From a virus: a stretch of DNA of 61,618 bases. A program made the position numbers and the translations under genes. A model generated the notes under the pieces. The model was not told the origin of the DNA, did no database searches, and saw only the letters and a program-made list of their open reading frames with translations. Where the stretch lies: IMG/VR virus record IMGVR_UViG_3300030331_000798, positions 1 through 61,618 of that record. One strand, written 5' to 3'. Numbering within the stretch: the first letter of the stretch is position 1; the number at the start of each line of letters is the position of its first letter. Positions 7,108 through 61,618 of this stretch are shown piece by piece.

Positions 7108-8625
7108 TCAGTAATATGCACGGACTTTGGGGTAATATTCCTCTTCGTCGTCGTAATCTGAGTCTAGTCTCAAAAATCCACCATTTCTAAAGCGTATTAA
7201 CGCTAATGTTGTGGAGTCCACCAAATCATCATGCTCTCCGTTAGGAAAGTCCGTAACTTCTTCCATTAATTCTTCAGCCCAGCGGTTTTCTGGCACCCAA
7301 ACCTTACCTTCTTGGAACATAGGGCTGACTGAATTCAACCTTGCAATCTTATCTTGGCCTTTGTTGGGTGAATACGTGTTAATCGGTATACCGAGTCTGC
7401 GTAATTCTTGCGTTAGCGGGATACCTGTTGCTTTCGTTTCAATAATTACAGAATCAGGATCCCAATATTCGTACAAACGTATCGCTTCTCGCTTTAGCTC
7501 AGGAAAATCTAGTCGCTCTTTTACACAATCAATCAAGATAATGTGCGCCTGACCTCCTGGATACATCTCATCGTTGATTTTTCCTTCCGGATAGAACACA
7601 CCCCACGTGGTTATTGCTGTAAAGTCAGCACGTTCAGACTTTAGAAACGCCGTATCGTAACTTTGAATTAAATATTCACAAGCTGGAGGCGCGTCGTTAG
7701 GCCAAATCTTGAACCATTCTTTCGGAATAATAGAAATACCTTCGCCGGTTGGCCGCTGCATGTACTGAGCCGCCCATTTCGAAGGAGGAACCGAAGCCTT
7801 AATCGACTCAAGTTCTTCTAATTTCCAAAATTCAGGCCATAACGATTTACCCGATGGCAAGATTGCAGGAAACTCAATCAGTTCCCATTGGTCTGCGTTC
7901 TTGTCTTGCATCATTTTCTTGATTAATTTACCCGTTAAATCTTTTTTAGACCAACGAGTCATCACGATAACGATAGCACCTCCTGGTTGGAGACGCTGTC
8001 GGGGGCCAGTCATAAACCAATCGTAGGCTTCGTCTAGTGATTTATCGGAAAACGCATCTTGTTCGGAGTGAGGATCGTCGATAATAAACAAATCAGCACC
8101 ACGACCTGCAAGTGCACCGCCTATACCTGACGCATAATACTCACCGCGTTGCGAAGTTAACCATTTACCCGCGCTTCTTGAGTCAGCTTTTAGTTCTGTC
8201 TTAGGAAATATCTCACGATATTCTTCAGTGTCAATTAAGTCACGCACCTTACGGCCAAAGTTTATAGCTAGGTCAGCCGTGTGCGTTGCTTCAATAATTT
8301 TTAACTTAGGATTTTTTCCTAACAAGTAAGCAGGAAACAGGTGTGACGCAAATTCAGACTTCGTATGTCTGGGCGGCATGTTGATAATTAACCGCTTTAG
8401 CTCACCGCTTGCTATTTTATCAAACGCCTGTGCCATTTTACGGTGGTGATCACCGTTAATAAATTCAGGCCAGATGATTTTTACAAAGTCAATAAAGCTA
8501 GAAGCAGAAGTTTCTCTGCGTTCGCGCTTTTCAAGTTCTTCAAGGAGAAGTGTAAACTCTTTTGCTTCACTCTTAGATAAGAATGACAGGTCTACGTTTT
8601 TTAGATCCTTGAGGATATCACTCAT
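7108..8625 (-). CDS. terL: terminase large subunit (packaging ATPase and nuclease)
   Basis: 505 aa. The ATPase has a Walker A variant PPRHTKSE (residues 84-91) and a Walker B FIIDDP (180-185). The C-terminal RNase H-like nuclease shows the expected acidic residues: D324 in QSYDTAF, E396 in VIIETKATG and the EHDDLVD cluster (464-470). All key residues are present. It drives DNA into the head through the portal encoded just downstream and cuts the concatemer. Its partner TerS is unusually far away (15478-16011). It overlaps the upstream gene by 4 bases. Confidence 0.96.
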   Translation of the reverse strand: MSDILKDLKNVDLSFLSKSEAKEFTLLLEELEKRERRETSASSFIDFVKIIWPEFINGDHHRKMAQAFDKIASGELKRLIINMPPRHTKSEFASHLFPAYLLGKNPKLKIIEATHTADLAINFGRKVRDLIDTEEYREIFPKTELKADSRSAGKWLTSQRGEYYASGIGGALAGRGADLFIIDDPHSEQDAFSDKSLDEAYDWFMTGPRQRLQPGGAIVIVMTRWSKKDLTGKLIKKMMQDKNADQWELIEFPAILPSGKSLWPEFWKLEELESIKASVPPSKWAAQYMQRPTGEGISIIPKEWFKIWPNDAPPACEYLIQSYDTAFLKSERADFTAITTWGVFYPEGKINDEMYPGGQAHIILIDCVKERLDFPELKREAIRLYEYWDPDSVIIETKATGIPLTQELRRLGIPINTYSPNKGQDKIARLNSVSPMFQEGKVWVPENRWAEELMEEVTDFPNGEHDDLVDSTTLALIRFRNGGFLRLDSDYDDEEEYYPKVRAYY

Positions 8626-26219: not shown

Positions 26220-26410
26220 CAGTCTTTGTAAAAATAATCACCGTCTCCTAGGCTCGAGCGACTCACGATCTGCCATATTCTCTGCTTCGTCAATCCGTAC
26301 TTCTGCCCGAGTAGAGCTAGAGTGGTGTCACCCTTGTTATACTCTTCGTAGATTGATCGGTAGAGCTGTCTATTTTCTTCTTTCTTTTCGTCACTAATTC
26401 CTTTGCTCAT
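26219..26410 (-). CDS. small helix-turn-helix protein, sigma70 region 4-like
   Basis: 63 aa from the ATG at 26410, which overlaps the polymerase stop as ATGA. YEEYNKGDTTLALLGQKYGL followed by TKQRIWQIVSRS is a helix-turn-helix of the sigma region 4/TrpR-like kind (TLALLGQKYGLTKQRIWQIV). It is probably a DNA-binding regulator. A longer frame upstream lies in polA and is discounted. Confidence 0.7.
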   Translation of the reverse strand: MSKGISDEKKEENRQLYRSIYEEYNKGDTTLALLGQKYGLTKQRIWQIVSRSSLGDGDYFYKD

Positions 26411-28266
26411 TCTGCAGAGTCTCCCCAAGTTTCTCCATACTCTGCGTCCACAACTAATGGCACGGATAAGTCTACGCATTTCGCCATTTTCTCCATGATA
26501 AATTCACCTTCCTCCTTTGATCCGACTGAATAGTCTAGTTCGTCATGAATCTGTAAGTGAGGGACATACCCCTCTTTCCAAAGATCTAGCATCGCTATCT
26601 TCGTCATATCTGCCGCTGACCCTTGAATCAATCTGTTTAGTGCCTTGTAGGTGTAAGAGCGTCTTATGTTTCCGTAGGTCTCTTTTGCCTCTTCTTCTAC
26701 TAGCGGTAGACCGTCCCCATGAACAGGCTCCCAAAAGTCGAAGCGGCACTTTCTTCCTCCGAGTGTTTTTATATGCCCTCGTTCTAGTGCTACTCTAGCG
26801 CACTGGTCCTGTAAGGCTCTGATAAACGGTACTCTCTGGTGGTACTGCTCGAGTAGAGTGCGAGCCTCATCTTCCTCTACTCCCAGCTCTTTAATCAACT
26901 TGGTGTGTCCCATTCCGTAGGTCAGCCCTAGGTTGATATTCTTGGCTTGTTTCCTAGGAATATTAGCCATATCCGCTACGATCTGGTGGAAATCAGCTCC
27001 TTCTTCCGAGTAGGCTTTAACCGCGTCCTCTGAGCCTCGTAGATTCATCTTATAGGCGTAATGCACGGTTAATCTAGGCTCCTGTTGCGAGTAGTCGAAC
27101 GCGCCCCAGATCGCGTCCTGTTCCGGTATAAATAATGAGCGTATTAGCTTTCCTAGTTCTGGGTCTCGAGCGGGAACCTGCTGTAAATTCGGGTTGGTGT
27201 AGCTAAATCTACCGCTGACTGTCCCTCCCGAGTCGTTTCTTAGAGGGTGGGCTTCTGCATGTATTCTTCCGTCAACTTGATGACCAAGAATCATTTTCTC
27301 AACAAAAGTAGTGCGTGCTTTATTCCACTTCCGAGCTTGTACGATCATCTTAGGTAGAGGATGCTCATGAACCTCTAGCCACGGGGCTTGGAAACTCGCC
27401 ATGCCTTTCTCAGTCCGAGGATACCAGATATCGTTAGCGTCGAACGCCTTCTGTATCGAAGCGTTCGCCCAGATCTCTACGCTGGTTCCAAACTTTCTCT
27501 TAAACTCGACCAGCAGCTGCTGTTCTTTTTTCGACAGAGCCTCGGCTACCTGCTCTGCTCGATCTAAATCAACTCTTACTCCTTTCCATCGCATCTCAAT
27601 CAACAACGGAATCAAGTCGCACTCTAACTTGAAAATCTTTTCTAATCCTTCCTCCTGGATTCTAGGGTAGAGCTGATTCCATAGCTGTAGAGTAAGCACT
27701 GCATCTTGCTCAGCGTATGGCCCAACGTATTTAGCCGGTAGAGCATACATACCAGATTTGGCATTTACTCCCCACGCTTTAGCAGCCTCCTCTAGCAGTG
27801 ATTCATCCTTCTCTTCAGCACAGTAATCCTTCCCCAAAACATTAAGAGAGTATGAGCGACGGTGCTCGTCAAGGAGAGGAGCAGCAAACATCGTGTCGTA
27901 GATTTGACACGTCAAGTCTATTCCTTCTCGCTTTAACCAGCCCACATCGTAGAGTGCATTATGAAAGACTAAAGAACCTTTATGGTTGGAGAGAGTTTTC
28001 TTTAGCCAACGAAGCACTATTTCTTCTTCTAAGTTTCCACCACCCTCATGGCGAATGGGGAGATAGCCACTCCATGAGTTAGATGAAACGGCGATACCTA
28101 CGATGTGACCTTCCCCCGTCGCCCATCCTGGCCCCCTTTCACGGAGAGCTGGATCATATGTTTCTAGGTCTACTGCTAGTAGTTCATGCTCGTCGAAACG
28201 AGGGAGAACACTAGGTGCTGACCAACTACTTTCTGGTGTTATTAGTGGTATCTGTCTCTGCTGCAT
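26407..28266 (-). CDS. DNA polymerase I-type (family A) with 3'-5' exonuclease
   Basis: 619 aa. The exonuclease has D33/E35 (AVDLETYDP), D107 (HNALYDVGW) and Y184/D188 (YAEQD), so proofreading should be active. The polymerase has motif A with D391 (FDYSQQEPR), motif B RKQAKNINLGLTYG and motif C with D575 (IHDELDY). There is no 5' nuclease domain. The residue equivalent to E. coli Phe762 is Leu446. It is the replicative polymerase of this phage, in one operon with primase, helicases and SSB. Confidence 0.96.
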   Translation of the reverse strand: MQQRQIPLITPESSWSAPSVLPRFDEHELLAVDLETYDPALRERGPGWATGEGHIVGIAVSSNSWSGYLPIRHEGGGNLEEEIVLRWLKKTLSNHKGSLVFHNALYDVGWLKREGIDLTCQIYDTMFAAPLLDEHRRSYSLNVLGKDYCAEEKDESLLEEAAKAWGVNAKSGMYALPAKYVGPYAEQDAVLTLQLWNQLYPRIQEEGLEKIFKLECDLIPLLIEMRWKGVRVDLDRAEQVAEALSKKEQQLLVEFKRKFGTSVEIWANASIQKAFDANDIWYPRTEKGMASFQAPWLEVHEHPLPKMIVQARKWNKARTTFVEKMILGHQVDGRIHAEAHPLRNDSGGTVSGRFSYTNPNLQQVPARDPELGKLIRSLFIPEQDAIWGAFDYSQQEPRLTVHYAYKMNLRGSEDAVKAYSEEGADFHQIVADMANIPRKQAKNINLGLTYGMGHTKLIKELGVEEDEARTLLEQYHQRVPFIRALQDQCARVALERGHIKTLGGRKCRFDFWEPVHGDGLPLVEEEAKETYGNIRRSYTYKALNRLIQGSAADMTKIAMLDLWKEGYVPHLQIHDELDYSVGSKEEGEFIMEKMAKCVDLSVPLVVDAEYGETWGDSAE

Positions 28267-28399
28267 CTTCTTTCTTAGAGTGTATTTCTGGATCGTATTT
28301 GTCTAACTTGATTTTGGAATCTCTATTCCATTTGCTTTTAAAGTAGAGTACCAATACCTTCAGTCTAAACCAGTAGTTTATTCTTCTTCCGATTCCCAA
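28226..28399 (-). CDS. small basic protein upstream of polA, TTG start
   Basis: 57 aa. A TTG at 28399 has AAGGAGG 8 bases upstream. The product has RRINYWFRLKVLVLYFKSKW, then a charged tail with KLDKYDPEIHSKKED. It fills the gap between two genes, overlapping the upstream gene by 22 bases and polA by 41. The N-terminal part is amphipathic and basic. Function unknown. Confidence 0.6.
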   Translation of the reverse strand: MGIGRRINYWFRLKVLVLYFKSKWNRDSKIKLDKYDPEIHSKKEDAAETDTTNNTRK

Positions 28400-28713
28400 T
28401 GTTCTAGCCTCCTTATGTCTGTGTTGTTCGCTCTGATCTCGCTCTCTACTAGAAGCAGATACCGTCTCAGATCTCCTATGTCATCAAGTAAACCGTCCTC
28501 TCCGATATACTTGCCCCCTGCTTCGAACACATCGTAATTACAGTCTTTACTCTGTTGTTCGATACGGTCGAACTTACGGGCTAACATCATAAAAGCCCCA
28601 GTTCCTCCCCTACGTTTCCAAGAGTCCCCGTAAGACTTCTCAGATTCGATCAAGCTATTTATATCGTGCTGTGCGATATCTTTTATACTCTGCCACTTAG
28701 GATCCAGTGCCAT
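28378..28713 (-). CDS. MazG/DUF1599-like protein, possible nucleotide pyrophosphohydrolase
   Basis: 111 aa from the ATG at 28713 (GGGAGG 6 bases upstream). SEKSYGDSWKRRGGTGAFMM, LARKFDRIEQ and LLDDIGDLRRYLLLVESE match a common all-helical phage family related in pattern to DUF1599/MazG. The acidic helix residues (E, D in FDRIEQ and LDDIGDL) would hold metal. Directly after the ThyA-family gene, a role in dNTP hygiene (removing an unwanted nucleotide) is plausible but unproven. Confidence 0.6.
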   Translation of the reverse strand: MALDPKWQSIKDIAQHDINSLIESEKSYGDSWKRRGGTGAFMMLARKFDRIEQQSKDCNYDVFEAGGKYIGEDGLLDDIGDLRRYLLLVESEIRANNTDIRRLEHWESEEE

Positions 28714-29749
28714 GTTTTGCCTCCCAGTTGAGTTGTCTTTTCTTAATCCATGCAAAAGCGGCTTCTTGCCAATCTTCTGCTTGAATTCTTTCAATCTCTC
28801 TATAACTTTCAACGTAGTCTCTCTTCTTGTGTTGTGTAAATGCTTTAATCATCGGTTCAATGACAAACGGGAAAATGTTATTTTTAAAACTGTCCCAGCT
28901 GATCGAGTTACAGTCTGCAATACTTAGCTCTAAGTCTTTATTCACAGGTAGACAGTTCAGGAAATACTTACACTCATATAGAAATGTTTGAGGGTGGTTA
29001 ACTATCGGCACTTGTTTTTTGGGATAGTACATAGGTAGCTGTTGATAGAACCCGTCGAAATCTATTAAGCGAATCTTTTCCCACTGTTCGGTTTCGTAGA
29101 CATGAAAGCTGTCGCTAATTTGATAGTACTTACCCATCGGTAAATCGAGTCTCGCCGCTATGTATTCTTGAAGAACTGACATATGAACTACGTTCGCTCC
29201 GTAGGCTCCCCAGATCATATCGTTCGACCTGTTACAGACTGTCATCTGTAGCTCGCCTTCTCGAATCTTAAAATAGATATTGGTGTTGCAAGGGATATCT
29301 ATGCTAGAGCTGTTTAGATCTTTTATAGCGTTCCACATCTGAATAACACAACGCCTTGAGTCTGGGTCTTTCTTTAACATCGAAACCACAGTTTCTATTT
29401 GGTTCAGCTTAAAAGTGTTTAACCACCTATGGCCATATGCCCCGTTTAGTGTTTTACCGTCATCGGAGAACCGCTTCATCCCGTCGTTAAAATGAGTAAG
29501 CTGTCTTAAATTCTCGGAACCTGCCATCATCCAGATAGCTTCTACTAGGTGGAAAAACGGGTTAGCGTCTCGAGTTTTCTCTAATAAAACTCGCTCCCAA
29601 GGTTTTTCATAGACTGTCGTAACTGGATGGATACACTCTAGCGTTGTTCCGTTACGGCTTTCTTGTCTCCTAAAATTTACATCGCTTCTAAATAAATCAA
29701 CGCCTTTTCTAAAAGCATCGTTAACATTGTTAGCACTAATCACCTTCAT
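28697..29749 (-). CDS. ThyA-family pyrimidine methylase or hydroxymethylase
   Basis: 350 aa from the ATG at 29749 (GGAG 7 bases upstream, 14-base overlap with the preceding gene). Catalytic Cys154 lies in DIPCNT, the phosphate-binding Arg pair is R132-R133 (DSRRC), and RSND (174-177) and GAYGANVV (181-188, with Asn186) form the dUMP site; H216/Y218 follow in SFHVY. Asn186 suggests a uracil substrate rather than cytosine. This is the divergent phage branch that includes dUMP hydroxymethylases, so it may make dTMP or 5-hydroxymethyl-dUMP. Its neighbours favour the latter. Confidence 0.85.
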   Translation of the reverse strand: MKVISANNVNDAFRKGVDLFRSDVNFRRQESRNGTTLECIHPVTTVYEKPWERVLLEKTRDANPFFHLVEAIWMMAGSENLRQLTHFNDGMKRFSDDGKTLNGAYGHRWLNTFKLNQIETVVSMLKKDPDSRRCVIQMWNAIKDLNSSSIDIPCNTNIYFKIREGELQMTVCNRSNDMIWGAYGANVVHMSVLQEYIAARLDLPMGKYYQISDSFHVYETEQWEKIRLIDFDGFYQQLPMYYPKKQVPIVNHPQTFLYECKYFLNCLPVNKDLELSIADCNSISWDSFKNNIFPFVIEPMIKAFTQHKKRDYVESYREIERIQAEDWQEAAFAWIKKRQLNWEAKHGTGS

Positions 29750-29978
29750 ATAGGCTCTCCGTGTTGTCAATCATAATTTGTTCGATTTGAAGTAAAGAAA
29801 CCCAACCAGTTCCTCCGATGTTTTTCTGCTGCTCGTGAATCCATGCAACAGCATCTGACCAAGTGTTGGGCATGCTGTGGTCTTTCATACACATTTGCAG
29901 AAACTCATGGTATTTAGTCATAACCCAAGTAACTTTAAGACTGCTCATGTCCATCAGGTGCTGCTTTAATTTGCCCAT
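29736..29978 (-). CDS. small hypothetical protein in the modification cluster
   Basis: 80 aa beginning MGKLKQHLMDMSSLKVTWVM, helical, with a WSDAVAWIHEQQKNIGGTGW segment. It overlaps the hypermodification gene by 13 bases and the ThyA-family gene by 14, so it is clearly part of the same translated unit. No family recognised. Confidence 0.6.
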   Translation of the reverse strand: MGKLKQHLMDMSSLKVTWVMTKYHEFLQMCMKDHSMPNTWSDAVAWIHEQQKNIGGTGWVSLLQIEQIMIDNTESLYEGD

Positions 29979-30895
29979 TTACTTTCTCCCTCATGCAAAT
30001 CTTCGATTATCGGTCGGTCTCTTTTGGAGTAGTCGTAGACGCTACGAGTCCGTCCTTCCCCCTTCAAGATCCTAGAGTATTTATCAAACTCACATAGACC
30101 TCCTTCCACTTCCCGCATCTCAAACGGCATTCGATACTTAATCCGCAACTCCTCTTGGCAGATAGCGTAGAGTTCTTGCATCTCTTTATTCCAATCGTGT
30201 GAGCGTTTACAGAACCCGAGGGGTCTGCCTGTAAGCCTGTTTAGTCCTCTCATGGCTCCTGGACCTGCGTTAGCCCAGCTACAGGTGTCAGTAGCTTCGT
30301 CTAATATGTAGGTGTGGCGTAGGTCAGTCACGATCTCGTAAGCAACAAACGGCCCGATGTACGGGTACTGTAGTAAAAACTCCCACGCTTCTTGTAACGT
30401 AGTCATCTTTTCTAAAGAGGAGACCAGTCTCTCTCGCTCAACCCATATATGTGTAACGCACTCAGCAACTCCCTTAACTTTGTTCATGCGGTTAGGGGTC
30501 TTGACTATGTAAGCCCCCGTTACCCATTTAGGCTGCTTGCTGACCTCTTCTATCGCTTTTTCTCTGTCCCAGTCGAGGTGTAGGTTATGTTCGAGTAGCG
30601 TTCTACCCGTTTCGATCAAGTTAAAAAACCTGAAGATAATCGTAGCCATAACCACTTCAGGCTCTGCCGACAACGGTCTGCGTATGTGTGCTGCAAACCA
30701 GCGGGTCGTTCTGTCATCTTCTCGATAGACTTGGCAAAACTTAAACGTCTTAAAGATCTCGTCTTCAGTCCAAGGAGGGTCAGCGTCAGCGTCCTCTTTT
30801 TTACGTCGAATACTTTCCCGCTCCTCTATCCAATAGAGATAGCGGTCAACCTCTTCGTTTATAAAAGTCTTGCCTTTTTTCTCAATCAGACTCAT
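29966..30895 (-). CDS. putative DNA base hypermodification protein (aGPT-PPlase / amino acid:DNA transferase-like)
   Basis: 309 aa. PPWTEDEIFKTFKFCQVYRE (residues 40-59) and DDRTTRWF, then IIFRFFNLIETGR, PYIGPFVAYEIVTDLRHT, ANAGPGAMRGLNR and a C-terminal MREVEGGLCEFDKYSR with GEGRTRS. This order matches the helical family first described as alpha-glutamyl/putrescinyl-thymine pyrophosphorylases, now amino acid:DNA transferases, and the related 5-hmdU-kinase helical domain. These act on modified thymines in phage DNA. The start is the ATG that overlaps the methyltransferase stop (ATGA). Confidence 0.78.
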   Translation of the reverse strand: MSLIEKKGKTFINEEVDRYLYWIEERESIRRKKEDADADPPWTEDEIFKTFKFCQVYREDDRTTRWFAAHIRRPLSAEPEVVMATIIFRFFNLIETGRTLLEHNLHLDWDREKAIEEVSKQPKWVTGAYIVKTPNRMNKVKGVAECVTHIWVERERLVSSLEKMTTLQEAWEFLLQYPYIGPFVAYEIVTDLRHTYILDEATDTCSWANAGPGAMRGLNRLTGRPLGFCKRSHDWNKEMQELYAICQEELRIKYRMPFEMREVEGGLCEFDKYSRILKGEGRTRSVYDYSKRDRPIIEDLHEGESKWAN

Positions 30896-31755
30896 ATTCT
30901 TTTTCTCAAGACCCATGCGCAGTTGTTAGATACTTCTGGGTAAAACGTCGCGGAAACTACTCTAAGAAACTGTTTACCGTAGCGTTCTTCTAAAAGTTCA
31001 AACTGATCGGGCCATAGCCGCCATTCGGCATCCTCCCCGTCTTTATGCATAGCTGCTTTTAGTTTAGGCATCTGAATAAACGTGCCAACTACAGACTGTA
31101 GAAACCAGCCTCGAGAGTGTCGGGTTAATTCTTTCTTAAGTTCTTCAAACCCCCACTCGTATACATGGTCTTCAGGTAGTTTGTCGTTAGACCCGTCATG
31201 GTTAGGAGTAGAGACATAAATCAGACCTCCTGGTCGTAACACACGATTAGCGTCGTCAAGCCACGCTTGTATAAACTCACGCCCCATGTGCTCTATTACT
31301 TCTGTGGTCCAGAAGAAATCAATAGAGTTGTCTGGTACATCAAACACAGGGTTAACGGTGAGATCCTGAATGTCAATTTGTCCGTTAAAGTTCTTAAACC
31401 AAGTAGAGTCTTGAACCAGTCCTGTGGGGCTGGAGTACCCTTGCTTCTCGTTGAGGCAAGCAGGGTCTATATCGACTCCTCGATAAGATGCAATCACGTC
31501 AGACTTCTTAACGGTGTAGGCTTTGTACAGGTTTCGGAGAACCCATATCTCTCCACACCCTGCTTCTAGCACGTTGATAGGTCTGTCAAGGAACTTCGCT
31601 TCCTCAATGCAGAGCGAAGATATTTTATCGTAACGAGTCATGTGTGTGATCTCGTCAGGTCGCCAGTTTCCTAGCATGTTTCCACTAGCAATATCCATGC
31701 GAGTGTTTTTACTGTTGTTGACATTTTTGTCAAGCTTCTTTCTAATAGAGGCCAT
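30892..31755 (-). CDS. class I SAM-dependent methyltransferase
   Basis: 287 aa. Motif I is VLEAGCGEI (62-70, E64 start of AGCG at 65-68), GVDIDPAC follows as motif II, then FFWTTEVIEHMG and VLRPGGLIYVSTPN, as in Methyltransf_11-type enzymes. It has no DNA-methylase DPPY or NPPY motif, so it is not an evident N6A/N4C enzyme; the acceptor may be a small molecule, protein or a modified base. It leads the cluster with the hypermodification and ThyA-family genes. Confidence 0.82.
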   Translation of the reverse strand: MASIRKKLDKNVNNSKNTRMDIASGNMLGNWRPDEITHMTRYDKISSLCIEEAKFLDRPINVLEAGCGEIWVLRNLYKAYTVKKSDVIASYRGVDIDPACLNEKQGYSSPTGLVQDSTWFKNFNGQIDIQDLTVNPVFDVPDNSIDFFWTTEVIEHMGREFIQAWLDDANRVLRPGGLIYVSTPNHDGSNDKLPEDHVYEWGFEELKKELTRHSRGWFLQSVVGTFIQMPKLKAAMHKDGEDAEWRLWPDQFELLEERYGKQFLRVVSATFYPEVSNNCAWVLRKRI

Positions 31756-31814: not shown

Positions 31815-33308
31815 TTATAATGGGTAATATTTCTGGGTTTGTGGTTCAATTAAAAACAGATTCTCCTTCGCCCGAGTTAATCCAACATAAAACACCCGTG
31901 ATTCGTCATCAGGATTTTGTTGATACGATTTAAACACGCGAGAAGAAATATCAGTGAGTAAAATGACGTTAGTTGCTTCTCCCCCCTTAGCCGCATGGAT
32001 AGTCGAAATCCGAATACGCGGCTCTTGTGTAATTTTTTCTCCTCTTCTTAGCATCGCTCGGATGTAACTTCGTTCTTTAACTGAGATTCCTTCGAACACA
32101 TCGTACCAATATCCTTCTTTTAGGTTAGGAACGTGTTTCTTTAGTTCTTTAAGGGAAATTAAAGTATCAAAGTCGATTACCGCGAGAGAAGAAGGTACGC
32201 GGATCTTTAAATAATTTAAGACATTGGTAACTTCCGTCATGGGAACAAGACCCTCTGCGCGGAGCGATTCCCAAGATCGGACTGCTCTAACTTTTTTCTC
32301 CGAGATACTGGCTCTATTTTTGTTTTTAAAGAACCATCCCTCAGATCGACAGTAGTCTTCAACATTCTGTAAGAGATAATTAGTGCGAGCTAAGACTAAC
32401 CAATCACCCTCTGCCATGTCTACGTTGTCGAATGCTGCCTCCCACCTAACCAACCCTTTCTCTTTTCTAGGATTCCATACTTTATGTACTCGTGAACTTA
32501 CTTGTCCGATACAACGCTCGGCAAGGTTATGAATAGATTTAGGGATTCTGTAGGACTGTTTGAGAATCATCGCATCTTTAGAGTTCCGAATCAGGTAATC
32601 GACATCTGCGCCAGCCCAACGGTAGATAGCTTGATCATCGTCTCCTGCAATATAAATACGTTCTGCTGAATCACACAGCTTTCTAACTACCGCCCACTGT
32701 AATGGTGAAAGGTCTTGCGCTTCGTCTACGAACATTACATCTAGTTTCGGAGCAACCCCTCGCTCTAAAAACTGCTGCAACATATCGGTGTAATCTAGCA
32801 GTAGACGATCTTGTTTGAATAACTTGAGTCCTCTAGCAAATCGCTCTAGCTCAAACCAGCCAACTGCGTCATCTACTTCTTGCCACTGATCTTCTAGTGT
32901 GGTCTGACGCATTCGAGCTAAGTTCTCTATAAACAGTAGACGGTCGTCTTTTGAGATACCTGATATATGTCCCTCGTCTGAGGCTCTTGAACCAGATAGT
33001 CTTAGGTTAAGTTTCTCGTTTAGATCATGGAGGTCTGCGCCTCCCAACACACTCTCTTTAGTCAGCCCTAGCTGTAAAAAACATAACGAGTGGAGTGTGC
33101 GAAAATACGGTAATTGATTCTTGTTGATTTCAAACCTGGAGATTGCTCTCGTTTTTCCTTCCTGTACAGCTTGTTTAGTAAACGTAAAAAATCCTATGCG
33201 TTCAGGCTCAGTCCCCCTTTCGAGTTCCTCTTCCAATAATCCTAGTAACGTGCTTGTTTTGCCCGTTCCAGGAGGTCCCAATATGACCTGAGCCTTACTG
33301 CTTAACAC
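31815..33308 (-). CDS. SF1 helicase, UvrD/Rep-like
   Basis: 497 aa with a GTG start at 33308 that shares a base with the upstream stop. Motif I GPPGTGKT (11-18), Ia-like FTFTKQAV, motif II VDEAQD (near 195), motif III GDDDQAIYRWAGA, motif IV-like LKQSYRIP, motif V STIHAAKGGEATNV and motif VI FYVGLTRAKENL are all present. It is shorter than cellular UvrD (about 720 aa). It should unwind DNA 3'-5', and sits next to the primase as part of the replisome. Confidence 0.93.
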   Translation of the reverse strand: MLSSKAQVILGPPGTGKTSTLLGLLEEELERGTEPERIGFFTFTKQAVQEGKTRAISRFEINKNQLPYFRTLHSLCFLQLGLTKESVLGGADLHDLNEKLNLRLSGSRASDEGHISGISKDDRLLFIENLARMRQTTLEDQWQEVDDAVGWFELERFARGLKLFKQDRLLLDYTDMLQQFLERGVAPKLDVMFVDEAQDLSPLQWAVVRKLCDSAERIYIAGDDDQAIYRWAGADVDYLIRNSKDAMILKQSYRIPKSIHNLAERCIGQVSSRVHKVWNPRKEKGLVRWEAAFDNVDMAEGDWLVLARTNYLLQNVEDYCRSEGWFFKNKNRASISEKKVRAVRSWESLRAEGLVPMTEVTNVLNYLKIRVPSSLAVIDFDTLISLKELKKHVPNLKEGYWYDVFEGISVKERSYIRAMLRRGEKITQEPRIRISTIHAAKGGEATNVILLTDISSRVFKSYQQNPDDESRVFYVGLTRAKENLFLIEPQTQKYYPL

Positions 33309-34850: not shown

Positions 34851-35633
34851 CTAAAATGGAACCTCTTCGTCGCTGGCTACATCGTCAGCGGCCCCTTCTT
34901 GGCGTACTACAACAGTCCCGCCTTTAGCCGCTTTCATAAAGTCGAGAGACAGCCGAGCAAGTTCTATTGGAGTAGGCTTTTCTCTTTCGGCAGTAACTCC
35001 GTACCAAGAGCCTAAGTCGTTAGACTGCTCTACGGTTTTTAGTCGGTAGATATAAGAGAACATTGGTGCGAGGACAGAGTTGCCCTCAGCGTTTTTAACA
35101 CGGGCTGTTCTGAGCATTGAGTTCCAACGCCTAGAAAACCCTAATTGTGATGAGGTAAAACTCAACAGAACCTGTTCAGGCTCAGCCTCATCGTTAACTA
35201 TAAGAGAGAAATACTGGGCGGTTTCTTTGATCTCGTTACCGCTTTCCATGATATACTCTTTCTTATCGTTCCTTGTACACTTCTCGAGTATGGAAGCGTC
35301 GTGGTCTGCACTAACGAATCCTCCTCCCTGTGTTCTAGGAACCCATTCGATCCACTGCTTAGAGTACGAACAAGGTATAACTAAGACTCCCTCTTCTCCG
35401 TCAAACAACTCATTAGTAACGGTGTTATACAACATTCCTTGTTGTGCCCCTTCGATGTACTTACCGTCACTCTTTTTGAGTTGCGGAGACATCGCCTGTA
35501 TGACTCTAAGAAACGGTATCGCATAGTCTGCGCTAGTCGCATCTTCTAAGCCAGTTCCTGCCGACAATAAGTCGGTATCGTAGACAGCTATTTCACCGTC
35601 TTGCTTTTCTGCTACATTTTTAGCCATTGTCAC
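34851..35633 (-). CDS. single-stranded DNA-binding protein-like
   Basis: 260 aa. A beta-rich middle with GVLVIPCSYSKQWIEWVPR and SFTSSQLGFSRRWNSMLR is followed by an acidic C-terminal tip ending DEEVPF, very close to the SSB tail (DDDIPF) that recruits replication partners. No standard OB signature is easy to see, so it may be a divergent or phage-type SSB. It is upstream of the primase in the replication operon. Confidence 0.65.
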   Translation of the reverse strand: MTMAKNVAEKQDGEIAVYDTDLLSAGTGLEDATSADYAIPFLRVIQAMSPQLKKSDGKYIEGAQQGMLYNTVTNELFDGEEGVLVIPCSYSKQWIEWVPRTQGGGFVSADHDASILEKCTRNDKKEYIMESGNEIKETAQYFSLIVNDEAEPEQVLLSFTSSQLGFSRRWNSMLRTARVKNAEGNSVLAPMFSYIYRLKTVEQSNDLGSWYGVTAEREKPTPIELARLSLDFMKAAKGGTVVVRQEGAADDVASDEEVPF

Positions 35634-35635
35634 CT

Positions 35636-36208
35636 CTATTTAATGTTGGCGCGGGATCCCACATATATCCCGAAGATGTCAGAGGGAATATCCTTCCCAC
35701 CTGTTATTTGCTCTTTTATAAATGCATTGAGCGTCTGTGGATGCACACCTTGTTTTACGTCAGGAGAAAGACCTTGCTGCTTCAACTTTTCTACAGTCGC
35801 AGTAGCTTTTTCGTCTTCGTTCTTTCCGAAGTTGAGAATAACTTGATTTTTAATCAAGGCACCATGATCGTTATCAACCAGCCAAGCCATAGCATCTTTT
35901 TGATGTTCTTCCGATATATGACCTTTATAAAAAGGTTTAACGGAAATCTTAGACCCGTTTGTTAATACAATCTCCGCAAGGTTTGCTTCTTGCATCGCTT
36001 CGGGAAGTTCTAGTTCCGACACAGCACGGTGTCTGCTCTTAGTTTCCTTCAGCTGTTCTTCAAGATCCTTAATCTCTTTTTCGAGATCAAGTTGTTCTTG
36101 AGCTTTTGCAGATACTTTAGATAGTTCAGCATCTGTGTTTTCTTGCTGCCATTCATCGACAGAAGAAGTTCCGGTAAGTTCTTCAAAACTTAATTCTTTT
36201 TCAGACAT
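35636..36208 (-). CDS. conserved replication-operon protein with coiled coil
   Basis: 190 aa. Residues about 38-65 form a coiled coil (LEKEIKDLEEQLKETKSRHR), then LPEAMQEANLAEIVLTNGSK, a domain with AMAWLVDNDHGALIKNQV, and a C-terminal LNAFIKEQITGGKDIPSDIF. I recall this layout from phage early operons, next to SSB-like proteins, with unknown function. It overlaps the upstream gene by 8 bases. Confidence 0.6.
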   Translation of the reverse strand: MSEKELSFEELTGTSSVDEWQQENTDAELSKVSAKAQEQLDLEKEIKDLEEQLKETKSRHRAVSELELPEAMQEANLAEIVLTNGSKISVKPFYKGHISEEHQKDAMAWLVDNDHGALIKNQVILNFGKNEDEKATATVEKLKQQGLSPDVKQGVHPQTLNAFIKEQITGGKDIPSDIFGIYVGSRANIK

Positions 36209-36548
36209 GGAGTTCTCCTAGTTGTTCTTTAGTTGGGCTGTGGCCATGGACATCCATACTTACTGGGTAGTACATCGACTCTTGTCGATCCCACTTCAAT
36301 ACTTTAAAACGTCCTTGGTTATAGTGCGAAGCCATAGCACATACTAGTCCTATAGCCGCAGGATCACCCATCAACAATAAATAATCATCGTCGTTAAAGT
36401 TCATAAGAGGCTTCCGTAACTCGCGAACCACGTTCGCAGTACCTAACATGAGATTAGTTCTAGCTTCTAATAGAAGCTGTAACTCCCCGTACTTTAGAGC
36501 TGGTGTTAGGTTTCGTCCAGGAACTTCCTGAACTACAAATACAGTCAT
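36201..36548 (-). CDS. first early-operon protein, unknown
   Basis: 115 aa, beginning MTVFVVQEVPGRNLTPALKY. It contains a RTNLMLGTANVVRELRKPLM helix and a GDPAAIGLVCAMASHYNQGR segment, alpha/beta. Preceded by AAAGGAGAAAGA. As the first gene of the replication block it may be regulatory; no family assigned. Confidence 0.6.
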   Translation of the reverse strand: MTVFVVQEVPGRNLTPALKYGELQLLLEARTNLMLGTANVVRELRKPLMNFNDDDYLLLMGDPAAIGLVCAMASHYNQGRFKVLKWDRQESMYYPVSMDVHGHSPTKEQLGELHV

Positions 36549-37340: not shown

Positions 37341-38783
37341 ATGAAATACGAGTTTAAAACTGAACCGTATGCTCATCAAAAAGACGCTCTGCTTAAGGCT
37401 TGGAACAAAGAGCACTATGCGTTCTTTATGGAGATGGGTACGGGGAAGTCAAAAGTTTTAATAGATAACTTTGCGATACTTTACAGTAAAGGCTCAGTAA
37501 CGGGTGTGGTTATTGTGGCTCCCAAAGGAGTTTACCGTAACTGGTCAGAACGAGAGCTACCTACGCATCTACCTGATTACATAGATCACCGGATAGGTGT
37601 CTGGTCTCCCTCGCCTAAGAAAGAAGAGAAACAAAAGCTGATGGATTTGTTCGAGGTAACTAACGAGCTAAAGATTCTAGTGATGAACGTAGAAGCCTTC
37701 AGCACTAAGAAAGGACTGACCTTCGCTGAGAACTTTATACTGGCTCACCAGACACTGTTAGCAATCGATGAGTCAACGACAATTAAAAACCCTAAAGCGG
37801 CTCGTACCAAGGCTCTTATCAAACTTTCTAAAAACGCTAAATACAGAAGGATACTGACAGGCTTTCCTATTACGCAGTCTCCTTTAGATCTGTATTCACA
37901 GACCGAAGTTCTTTCTCCTAGTTTGCTAGGGTTTACTTCGTTCTATTCGTTTCAGAACCACTACGGTCAGGTCGTTAAACGACACTTCGGTGCTAGATCA
38001 TTTAGACAGGTCGTAGGCTATCAGAACCTAGAAGAACTTTCGGAGCGCGTAGATAGGTTTTCCTACCGCGTACTGAAAAAAGAGTGTCTTGACTTACCTG
38101 ACAAGGTTTACCTTCGCAGAGAAGTAGAACTAACCCCTGAACAAAAGAAAGTTTACGGTGAGCTAAAAGAGTATGCGATAGCAGAACTAGGCGAGATGGA
38201 GCAGGTGTCAGTAAACAACGTACTCACGCAAATGCTCAGGCTTCACCAAGTCGTTTGTGGCTATACGAAAACAGACGAGGGAACAGAAATACCTATAGAA
38301 AACAATAGGATAGACGAACTGATCAATGTCATCGGTGAGATGCGAGGCAAGATTATTATATGGGCAAATTACCGACACAACATAAAAGAGATCGTGGAAA
38401 CCATGCAAGAACTAGGTGGGCCTGATTGCGTAGCTAGTTACTACGGCGATACTTCTGACGAAGAAAGAGAAAGCGTTATAGAACGATTTCAAGATCCTGA
38501 TTCAGAACTTCGTTACTTCGTAGGAAATACACAAACAGGAGGATACGGGATTACGCTGACTCAAGCACAAAATGTAATCTACTACTCGAATAATTTTGAT
38601 TTAGAAAAGAGGCTGCAGTCCGAAGACCGCGCACATCGGATAGGTCAGGACAGTAAAGTGACTTATGTTGACCTAGTCGCACCAAAAACCGTTGACGAAA
38701 ATATCGTCAAGGCTCTTAGGAACAAACTAAATCTAGCTCAAGAAGTATTAGGTGATGAAAAATGGAAGTCGTGGCTAACCTAA
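37341..38783 (+). CDS. SNF2-like SF2 helicase/ATPase
   Basis: 480 aa. Motif I MGTGKS (32-37), motif II DEST (143-146), RRILTGFP as motif III, and in the second lobe IIWANYRHN, GGYGITLTQAQNVIYY and EDRAHRIGQ as motifs IV-VI. It lacks accessory domains, so it is a minimal SNF2/DEAD-type translocase as found in many phages. A role in replication fork remodelling or recombination is likely. Its last 9 bases overlap the end of the next, oppositely oriented gene. Confidence 0.94.
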   Translation: MKYEFKTEPYAHQKDALLKAWNKEHYAFFMEMGTGKSKVLIDNFAILYSKGSVTGVVIVAPKGVYRNWSERELPTHLPDYIDHRIGVWSPSPKKEEKQKLMDLFEVTNELKILVMNVEAFSTKKGLTFAENFILAHQTLLAIDESTTIKNPKAARTKALIKLSKNAKYRRILTGFPITQSPLDLYSQTEVLSPSLLGFTSFYSFQNHYGQVVKRHFGARSFRQVVGYQNLEELSERVDRFSYRVLKKECLDLPDKVYLRREVELTPEQKKVYGELKEYAIAELGEMEQVSVNNVLTQMLRLHQVVCGYTKTDEGTEIPIENNRIDELINVIGEMRGKIIIWANYRHNIKEIVETMQELGGPDCVASYYGDTSDEERESVIERFQDPDSELRYFVGNTQTGGYGITLTQAQNVIYYSNNFDLEKRLQSEDRAHRIGQDSKVTYVDLVAPKTVDENIVKALRNKLNLAQEVLGDEKWKSWLT

Positions 38784-53656: not shown

Positions 53657-53880
53657 TATTCTTGCTCCGGAGTAACCGCTTCTAGTTGTTGCGCATACCA
53701 GTTAAACGCTGCCATGTGTGTATCGAGTTGTTTTTGATTAGAGTTAATAATCTGGGTTATTTGAGCAATTTGTTCTCTAAGCTCATCCATCCTAGTATTT
53801 AACATCTCAGGATTAGGAGGAAGCTCAACGACCTCAGTTTCCTCTGTAACTTCCGTTTGAATGTCTTGTTCCGTCATCAT
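53656..53880 (-). CDS. small hypothetical acidic protein
   Basis: 74 aa, acidic N-terminus (TEETEVVELPPNPEM) and a single helical segment (RMDELREQIAQITQIINSNQ). It overlaps the oxygenase gene by 47 bases, a long overlap, so a later start (53877) is possible. Function unknown. Confidence 0.55.
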   Translation of the reverse strand: MMTEQDIQTEVTEETEVVELPPNPEMLNTRMDELREQIAQITQIINSNQKQLDTHMAAFNWYAQQLEAVTPEQE

Positions 53881-54562
53881 CTACCTTCCAAACATTTAAA
53901 TTTGCAGCGACTGTGCGCCGTTCTCCATCACCCTCAAAGGGGTAAACCATGTGTGTCAACCAGCTAGGAAACATCAACATTTTTCCAACTTCTGGCTTAA
54001 TTACAAAACTTTGTGGGGGAGCTAAACGCTCTACATCTAACAAGCTATTACGACCATAACTAAACGCAAGGCAACCATCTGAGTTACCGCTTGAATTGTA
54101 TAAACTGTACTCTGGGCTTCCTGCCGTAGGTTGATCTAAGATTTGTTGTGGTACTCTTGTCCATGTTGTGCAGGAGACTCCCATAATAGTTTTAGTACCA
54201 TGATCGTGTATGGGATTATAATCGCCAGCGTAAGAATGAACAGACCAAAGCTCATCAGTAAGTACCTCTCTTTTACCTTTTAGTGGGTTTCCAGAATGAG
54301 CGCAGAACTGCTTGACGTAATCCATTGCCAAGCCCTGAATTGTCCAATTAAAGTCCTTTAGCTCTTCACATTCGTGATCCATCGTAAGCTGTTGGCCGTG
54401 GGATATCTGCCCTACTAATGTACCCGCATGACTTTTGCGTTCCTGATCTACTATTAACTTATCAAGGTAATCATTAAGCGTACCTACCATATTTTCAGAT
54501 AGCTGCGCCTCCAGCATAAACACCGCTGGCAACGAATGAAACGTATAATGTTGCTGTTCCAT
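53834..54562 (-). CDS. 2OG-Fe(II) oxygenase-like protein
   Basis: 242 aa. SYAGDYNPIHDHGTKTIMG (H119, D120, H121), LMFPSWLTHMVYPFEGDGER (H204) and RRTVAANLNVW (R215/R216) form the HxD/H...H...R arrangement of the DSBH dioxygenase fold, as in phage 2OG-Fe(II) oxygenases. The first His pair is HDH rather than the usual HxD. Targets are unknown: a virion or host protein, or a base. It sits among fibre genes, so a fibre-modifying hydroxylase is possible. Confidence 0.75.
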   Translation of the reverse strand: MEQQHYTFHSLPAVFMLEAQLSENMVGTLNDYLDKLIVDQERKSHAGTLVGQISHGQQLTMDHECEELKDFNWTIQGLAMDYVKQFCAHSGNPLKGKREVLTDELWSVHSYAGDYNPIHDHGTKTIMGVSCTTWTRVPQQILDQPTAGSPEYSLYNSSGNSDGCLAFSYGRNSLLDVERLAPPQSFVIKPEVGKMLMFPSWLTHMVYPFEGDGERRTVAANLNVWKVDDDGTRHSNGSYRGN

Positions 54563-61128: not shown

Positions 61129-61618
61129 TTAAGCGTCTGCAAACGGAGTAACAAGTGTGCCTGAGCCAAGAGTTATACCCTCTACTGCGTATTTTGCACT
61201 TGCTATAGCGGTTACTCTTATGATGCTTCCTGCAAGACCGCCTTTAGTGCTGCCATTTAGAGTAATCACATCGTTAGAAGCACCTGAGATGAAAGTCTTA
61301 CCTGTGGCGTCATCTACGCCTGTGTAAACTCCACCAACAAATTTGTCAGTACCGTCCGTTACGATGTCCATGTCAGTAGCAGCTGTTACAACTATAAATG
61401 TAAACTGTGCACCTAAATTGGCTGTTTGACTTGGAGAACCTTTATCAGTAGGTTCTGTAACAACAATACTAGGTAGTGTAAAAACACCGTCTGCATCGTT
61501 ACAAAGAAGTGGTCGTCCTGCATGATCAGCAACAGTAATTGTTGTATTAGCTGTTAAACTAACAACACCATTGTATCCAGCATTAATAAGACCTGCGAGT
61601 GATCTAACGGGGCCAGAG
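61129..61618 (-). CDS. virion protein, C-terminal part (continues at 117-1)
   Basis: This is the downstream part of the gene that starts at 117. Joined through the 100-base overlap it gives about 168 aa, ending ...GTLVTPFADA. An internal ATG at 61371 is not the start. The C-terminal half is beta-rich, with VGGVYTGVDDATGKTFISGA. It lies 17 bases upstream of the next structural gene. Confidence 0.8.
   Translation of the reverse strand, partial: SGPVRSLAGLINAGYNGVVSLTANTTITVADHAGRPLLCNDADGVFTLPSIVVTEPTDKGSPSQTANLGAQFTFIVVTAATDMDIVTDGTDKFVGGVYTGVDDATGKTFISGASNDVITLNGSTKGGLAGSIIRVTAIASAKYAVEGITLGSGTLVTPFADA
61519..61618. repeat. terminal overlap, right copy
   Basis: Identical to 1-100 except for position 61617 (a, versus c at 99). 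The true genome is thus about 61,518 bp. The mismatch lies two bases from the edge and is most simply a read-end error. Confidence 0.93.

Follow-up and report, generated by a model that had tools for sequence, protein, structure and literature searches.

A phage thymine-hypermodification-type locus with a methyltransferase gene in the position of the 5-hydroxymethyldeoxyuridine kinase gene

In the gene clusters for thymidine hypermodification of the Pseudomonas phages M6/YuA and PaMx11, a uracil-type ThyA-family enzyme and a protein of Pfam family PF18723 ('5-hmdU DNA kinase, helical domain', where 5-hmdU is 5-hydroxymethyldeoxyuridine) are encoded in one row near the DNA polymerase A (PolA) gene. 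In YuA and PaMx11, the PF18723 gene lies directly after the gene for a P-loop kinase, with a 1-base overlap, and the amino acid:DNA transferase (ADDT) of family PF18724 (YuA gp10 and PaMx11 gp46) is a gene separate from PF18723. The locus described here, at 28378–31755 of the IMG/VR virus record IMGVR_UViG_3300030331_000798, from an uncultured phage (61,618 nucleotides, analysed whole and referred to below as the window), has the same ThyA-family and PF18723 genes in one row near PolA, but a gene for an S-adenosylmethionine (SAM)-dependent methyltransferase (MTase) occupies the exact position of the kinase gene and overlaps the PF18723 gene. Set against the kinase-type pathway of M6 and ViI, the ThyA-type enzyme (of predicted activity) and PF18723 are present, whereas the kinase and PF18724 are absent. 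This gene content, the replacement at the kinase position, the absence of kinase and ADDT, and the exclusive conservation of the MTase–PF18723 pair are established. The pair points to a candidate 5-hmdU O-methyltransferase.

Gene content of the cassette

The genome is complete or nearly so, since bases 1–98 recur at 61519–61616. As an earlier note made from the sequence alone had stated, the cassette consists of five overlapping genes in one row; all are intact open reading frames (ORFs) on the minus strand, flanked by genes for a UvrD helicase and PolA:

31815–33308, minus strand: UvrD-like helicase, upstream flank, outside the cassette (PF00580, E=1.4e-28)
30892–31755, minus strand: SAM-dependent MTase of Methyltransf_23 type, 287 aa (PF13489, E=3.5e-12)
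29966–30916, minus strand: PF18723 (HMUDK_hel) protein of 316 aa, or 309 with the start at 30895 (PF18723, E=2.5e-43)
29736–29978, minus strand: 80-aa ORF with no assigned function, overlapping both neighbours
28697–29749, minus strand: ThyA-family enzyme, predicted dUMP 5-hydroxymethylase (PF00303, phrog_5131, Asn and Cys)
28378–28713, minus strand: small MazG/DUF1599-like ORF, probably 111 aa from the ATG at 28713 (motif resemblance only)
26407–28266, minus strand: PolA, downstream flank, outside the cassette (PF00476, E=8.9e-60)

Pfam scans covered about 30 window ORFs, and the others were covered by a Walker A scan and whole-genome family searches. If the PF18723 gene starts at an alternative ATG at 30895, it overlaps the MTase stop codon by 4 nt (ATGA). 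The frame of the small MazG/DUF1599-like ORF is open as far as 28812, but the shorter form is preferred because it is the one that relatives suggest.

The PF18723 protein is 42 % identical to PaMx11 gp50. The earlier note had taken it for an aGPT-PPlase/amino acid:DNA transferase-like protein. This identity was rejected: PF18723, the helical partner of the kinase, is the only significant match, PF18724 is absent, and no profile relationship was found between PF18723 proteins and ADDT. As PF18723 is itself a hypermodification family, the profile search nevertheless places 29966–30895 inside the hypermodification families, and the broader description holds: the locus is of the thymine-hypermodification type, has a methyltransferase and lacks a recognisable kinase.

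The ThyA-family protein was assigned to PF00303 (E=9.2e-24) and to phrog_5131 (E=5.5e-105), and PaMx11 gp51 falls in the same two families. The catalytic Cys is present, and the pyrimidine-selecting position carries the uracil-type Asn, as first noticed in the sequence; the closest solved relative, a CMP 5-hydroxymethylase, has Asp at this position. Family, Asn and neighbours together predict a dUMP 5-hydroxymethylase.

At a cut-off of E<=10, neither PF18748 (kinase) nor PF18724 matched the window or any of 17 relatives. PF18748 is weak on PaMx11-type kinases (E=0.002), and a 17-row kinase alignment was therefore built. This recovers positive-control records with E-values of 1e-63 to 1e-78. 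It matched nothing in the window or in 12 MTase-type records, nor in the records tried of two other types described below, in which PF18723 occurs with a TET-associated glycosyltransferase (TAGT) or with an FkbM methyltransferase. The strict Walker A motif [AG]x4GK[ST] occurs in the window only in the UvrD helicase (31815–33308) and as a chance-looking AILPSGKS in 7108–8625. A hidden kinase was rejected on these three negative searches, which bear out the reported lack of a P-loop kinase. A search of the genome with PF20691 (TAGT type) was also negative, and a glycosyltransferase was discarded as a candidate.

The proteins encoded directly before PF18723 in PaMx11 (gp49), YuA (gp13) and Microbacterium phage Koji (gp53) are annotated as 'terminase small subunit'. 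Those of PaMx11 and YuA are in fact proteins of the P-loop 5-hmdU kinase type; the misleading terminase label is also attached to phrog_800.

Conservation of the pair and exchange of partners

A scan of viral contigs with the MTase gave 118 relatives, of which the best 80 were retrieved. Over all scans, 122 window-type MTase loci (82 distinct junctions and 77 distinct MTase proteins) were collected, and PF18723 is present in every one. The MTase gene always adjoins that of PF18723 and overlaps it in most loci, and the SAM motifs are retained in 120–121 of the 122. No kinase, ADDT, TAGT, FkbM or GT-B glycosyltransferase gene was found in the flanks of these loci. No retrieved locus had PF18723 fused to a kinase or MTase; a Klebsiella phage Magnus gene was rejected as proof of a PF18723 fusion, its 409-aa product being annotated only as hypothetical. 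Bacterial homologues of the MTase were confined to five contigs of metagenome-assembled genomes, two of which have a ThyA-family gene nearby.

Three relatives whose PolA is 48–52 % identical to that of the window have no cassette at this site: in DSL-LC04 the PolA and helicase genes are adjacent, with a 4-nt overlap, and HTVC023P and 023Pt_psg01 likewise lack it there. HTVC023P-type pelagiphages resemble the window in their replication genes and in having thymidylate synthase (TS) and aGPT-PPlase1 genes near PolA. From TS and aG/PT-PPlase1 in related phages, M6-type hypermodification was inferred in 2022, in a paper whose main text mentions neither a methyltransferase nor a missing 5-hmdU kinase (mSystems 2022, PMC9599517).

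PF18723 was surveyed in 80 loci from a diverse-alignment scan, together with Brevibacterium phage LuckyBarnes and a few phage records. Its partners were a kinase in 32 loci, the window-type MTase in 26, a TAGT in the flanks in 17, and FkbM with GT-B in seven; a few loci had none of these. The TAGT figure is the maximum number of real partnerships, since the TAGT gene overlaps PF18723 in some loci but is kilobases distant in others. No locus belongs to two classes. In a tree of PF18723, the MTase class forms a single fully supported group, beside the FkbM class, and the well-supported branches require at least 4–5 changes of kinase and TAGT labels. PF18723 is thus not tied to the kinase.

LuckyBarnes (NC_047851.1, 31993–36008) and similar contigs resemble the window in pairing a ThyA-family gene with PF18723 in the absence of a recognisable 5-hmdU kinase, but their partner enzymes are TAGT glycosyltransferases rather than a methyltransferase. 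This gene content suggests glycosylated 5-hmdU. Other contigs pair PF18723 with an FkbM methyltransferase, a small MazG-like ORF and a GT-B glycosyltransferase adjoining the ThyA-family gene, which suggests glycosylated, perhaps sugar-methylated, 5-hmdU.

More distant end-to-end relatives of the MTase (~26 % identity) lie near pyrimidine hydroxymethylase genes in Stenotrophomonas phage AXL3, in PW916 and in two Manatee Spring phages, and a ThyA-family gene flanks such a relative in 21 of 22 further contigs. These loci share with the window the proximity of MTase and hydroxymethylase, but differ from it in several respects: the hydroxymethylases of the four annotated phages carry the cytosine-type Asp, as dCMP enzymes typically do, PF18723 is lacking, and in these phages genes for a nucleotide kinase and a nucleoside triphosphate (NTP) pyrophosphohydrolase are also present. 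Only two of 37 restriction enzymes, TasI and Tru1I, which have A/T-only sites, cut AXL3 DNA (PMC7504290). This separate setting would suit a family of MTases whose role is to cap hydroxymethyl-pyrimidines.

Proposed pathway and alternatives

An AlphaFold2 model of the PF18723 protein (predicted local distance difference test, pLDDT, 92) is closest to helix-hairpin-helix (HhH) DNA glycosylases; the PaMx11 glycinyltransferase gp46 ranks lower among the matches. On this model the protein could plausibly flip bases. Core residues of PF18723 are invariant across the partner classes. The MTase model has a class I SAM fold (pLDDT 82), and small-molecule methyltransferases, including AtmM and RebM, are among its nearest folds. 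AtmM and RebM methylate a sugar hydroxyl. The modelled fold thus fits methylation of a hydroxyl group, short of proof. The best Pfam families of the MTase are Methyltransf_23/11; no profile of a classical DNA base methyltransferase (N6, N4 or C5) rose above cut-off, N6_N4_Mtase being sub-threshold at E=0.11. By sequence, no solved relative of either protein was found.

We favour a pathway without a phosphorylated intermediate, to which about even confidence can be given. The ThyA-family enzyme would convert dUMP to 5-hydroxymethyl-dUMP, while competing nucleotides might be thinned out by the product of the small MazG-like ORF, and 5-hmdUTP would be incorporated into DNA at replication. The PF18723 protein would then bind and flip 5-hmdU in DNA and present it to a partner transferase, a role proposed because of its fold, the residues common to all partner classes and the swapping of partners. 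Finally, the overlapping MTase, in place of the P-loop kinase, would methylate the hydroxymethyl oxygen to give 5-methoxymethyl-2'-deoxyuridine. Such a methylated base would shield the DNA from host nucleases. The earlier note had offered two guesses, a different activation step or a methylated end product. The former, as a prelude to amino acid addition, loses its basis because no PF18724 transferase occurs in the window or the 17 relatives; the latter is the better supported, the end product itself being a prediction.

Several points weigh against this pathway. The structural matches of the PF18723 model are weak (E 0.07–0.5, best 0.07), although the Foldseek probabilities are high, and those of the MTase are shared by class I SAM enzymes in general, N- and C-methyltransferases included. 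A conserved neighbourhood does not by itself demonstrate that the MTase acts on 5-hmdU, and the AXL3-type support is indirect because those loci lack PF18723 and encode a cytosine-type enzyme. The 5-methoxymethyl-dU product is predicted from gene content and models.

The generic fold of the MTase would also suit a second explanation, in which the end product is plain 5-hmdU, as in SPO1, PF18723 merely binds it, and the MTase acts on another base, RNA, protein or a metabolite. 5-hmdU alone is a known phage base. This is nevertheless unlikely, given that the MTase gene stands in the exact kinase position, overlaps PF18723 and never occurs without it in the clade. It is distinctly improbable that the MTase methylates free 5-hmdUMP or 5-hmdUTP and that the methoxymethyl nucleotide is then polymerized. 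Such a route would accord with the small-molecule methyltransferases among the nearest solved folds and with the AXL3-type MTase, which has hydroxymethylase and nucleotide kinase genes nearby and no PF18723, but it leaves the tight pairing with PF18723 unexplained, and PF18723 relatives adjoin a kinase known to act on DNA.

Known pathways proceed via 5-phosphomethyl-dU, and several small ORFs of the window have no family match; a host kinase or an unrecognised phage kinase might phosphorylate 5-hmdU, with the MTase only tailoring a later adduct. We consider this very improbable, since neither a kinase (by motif or profile) nor an ADDT was found in the window and its relatives, and a host kinase would not be common to so many phages. 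Least probable of all is that nothing is hypermodified and that a normal thymidylate synthase happens to lie next to a methyltransferase with which it has no connection: both enzymes are common in phages, but the PF18723 family is specific to 5-hmdU, and the cassette is conserved as a whole.

A wider reading of the favoured O-methylation pathway is put forward tentatively, with confidence somewhat short of even: PF18723 may be a general 5-hmdU-presenting subunit with an exchangeable kinase, glycosyltransferase or methyltransferase, the last being here an O-methyltransferase that yields 5-methoxymethyl-deoxyuridine, to which 5-methoxymethylcytosine may correspond in AXL3-type phages. If this is correct, the module that handles 5-hmdU is separable from the kinase whose name PF18723 bears, several interchangeable chemistries on one DNA handle are predicted, and a specific base with a searchable mass, a calculated [M+H]+ of 273.108 that is 14 Da above hmdU, can be sought. 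The transformations of 5-hydroxymethyl-dU and -dC in DNA listed in a 2025 paper are glycosylation, amination and carbamoylation (PMC12783734); simple O-methylation would add to this set, and the MTase would cap 5-hmdU in DNA in a single step. The methyl cap, replacing the phosphate and amino acid of known phages, would constitute a new kind of disguised base. Methoxymethyl-uracil and -cytosine were not named in the literature searched, which did not include the key papers of Lee/Weigele and Iyer.

Small ORFs and other genes of the window

The 80-aa ORF has no match in Pfam or PHROG, and its relatives are confined to the nearer part of the clade. The ORF at 28378–28713 had been labelled MazG/DUF1599-like; the motif resemblance stands, while no significant match to Pfam, PHROG or NCBIfam supports the family label. 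It is kept in most MTase-type loci, in all FkbM-type loci and in some kinase- and TAGT-type loci, and hhalign also places a short motif of it near the C-terminal end of LuckyBarnes ThyA (P=2.7e-4, probability 42 %). It is a possible nucleotide-pool enzyme.

Elsewhere in the window, a 2OG-Fe(II) oxygenase-like gene (53834–54562, minus strand; PF13759, E=4.3e-13) lies amid structural-looking genes. At 34851–36548 (minus strand) and 37341–38783 (plus strand), three genes with matches to phage Pam3 gp32/gp33/gp34-like families lie beside a divergent SNF2-type helicase.

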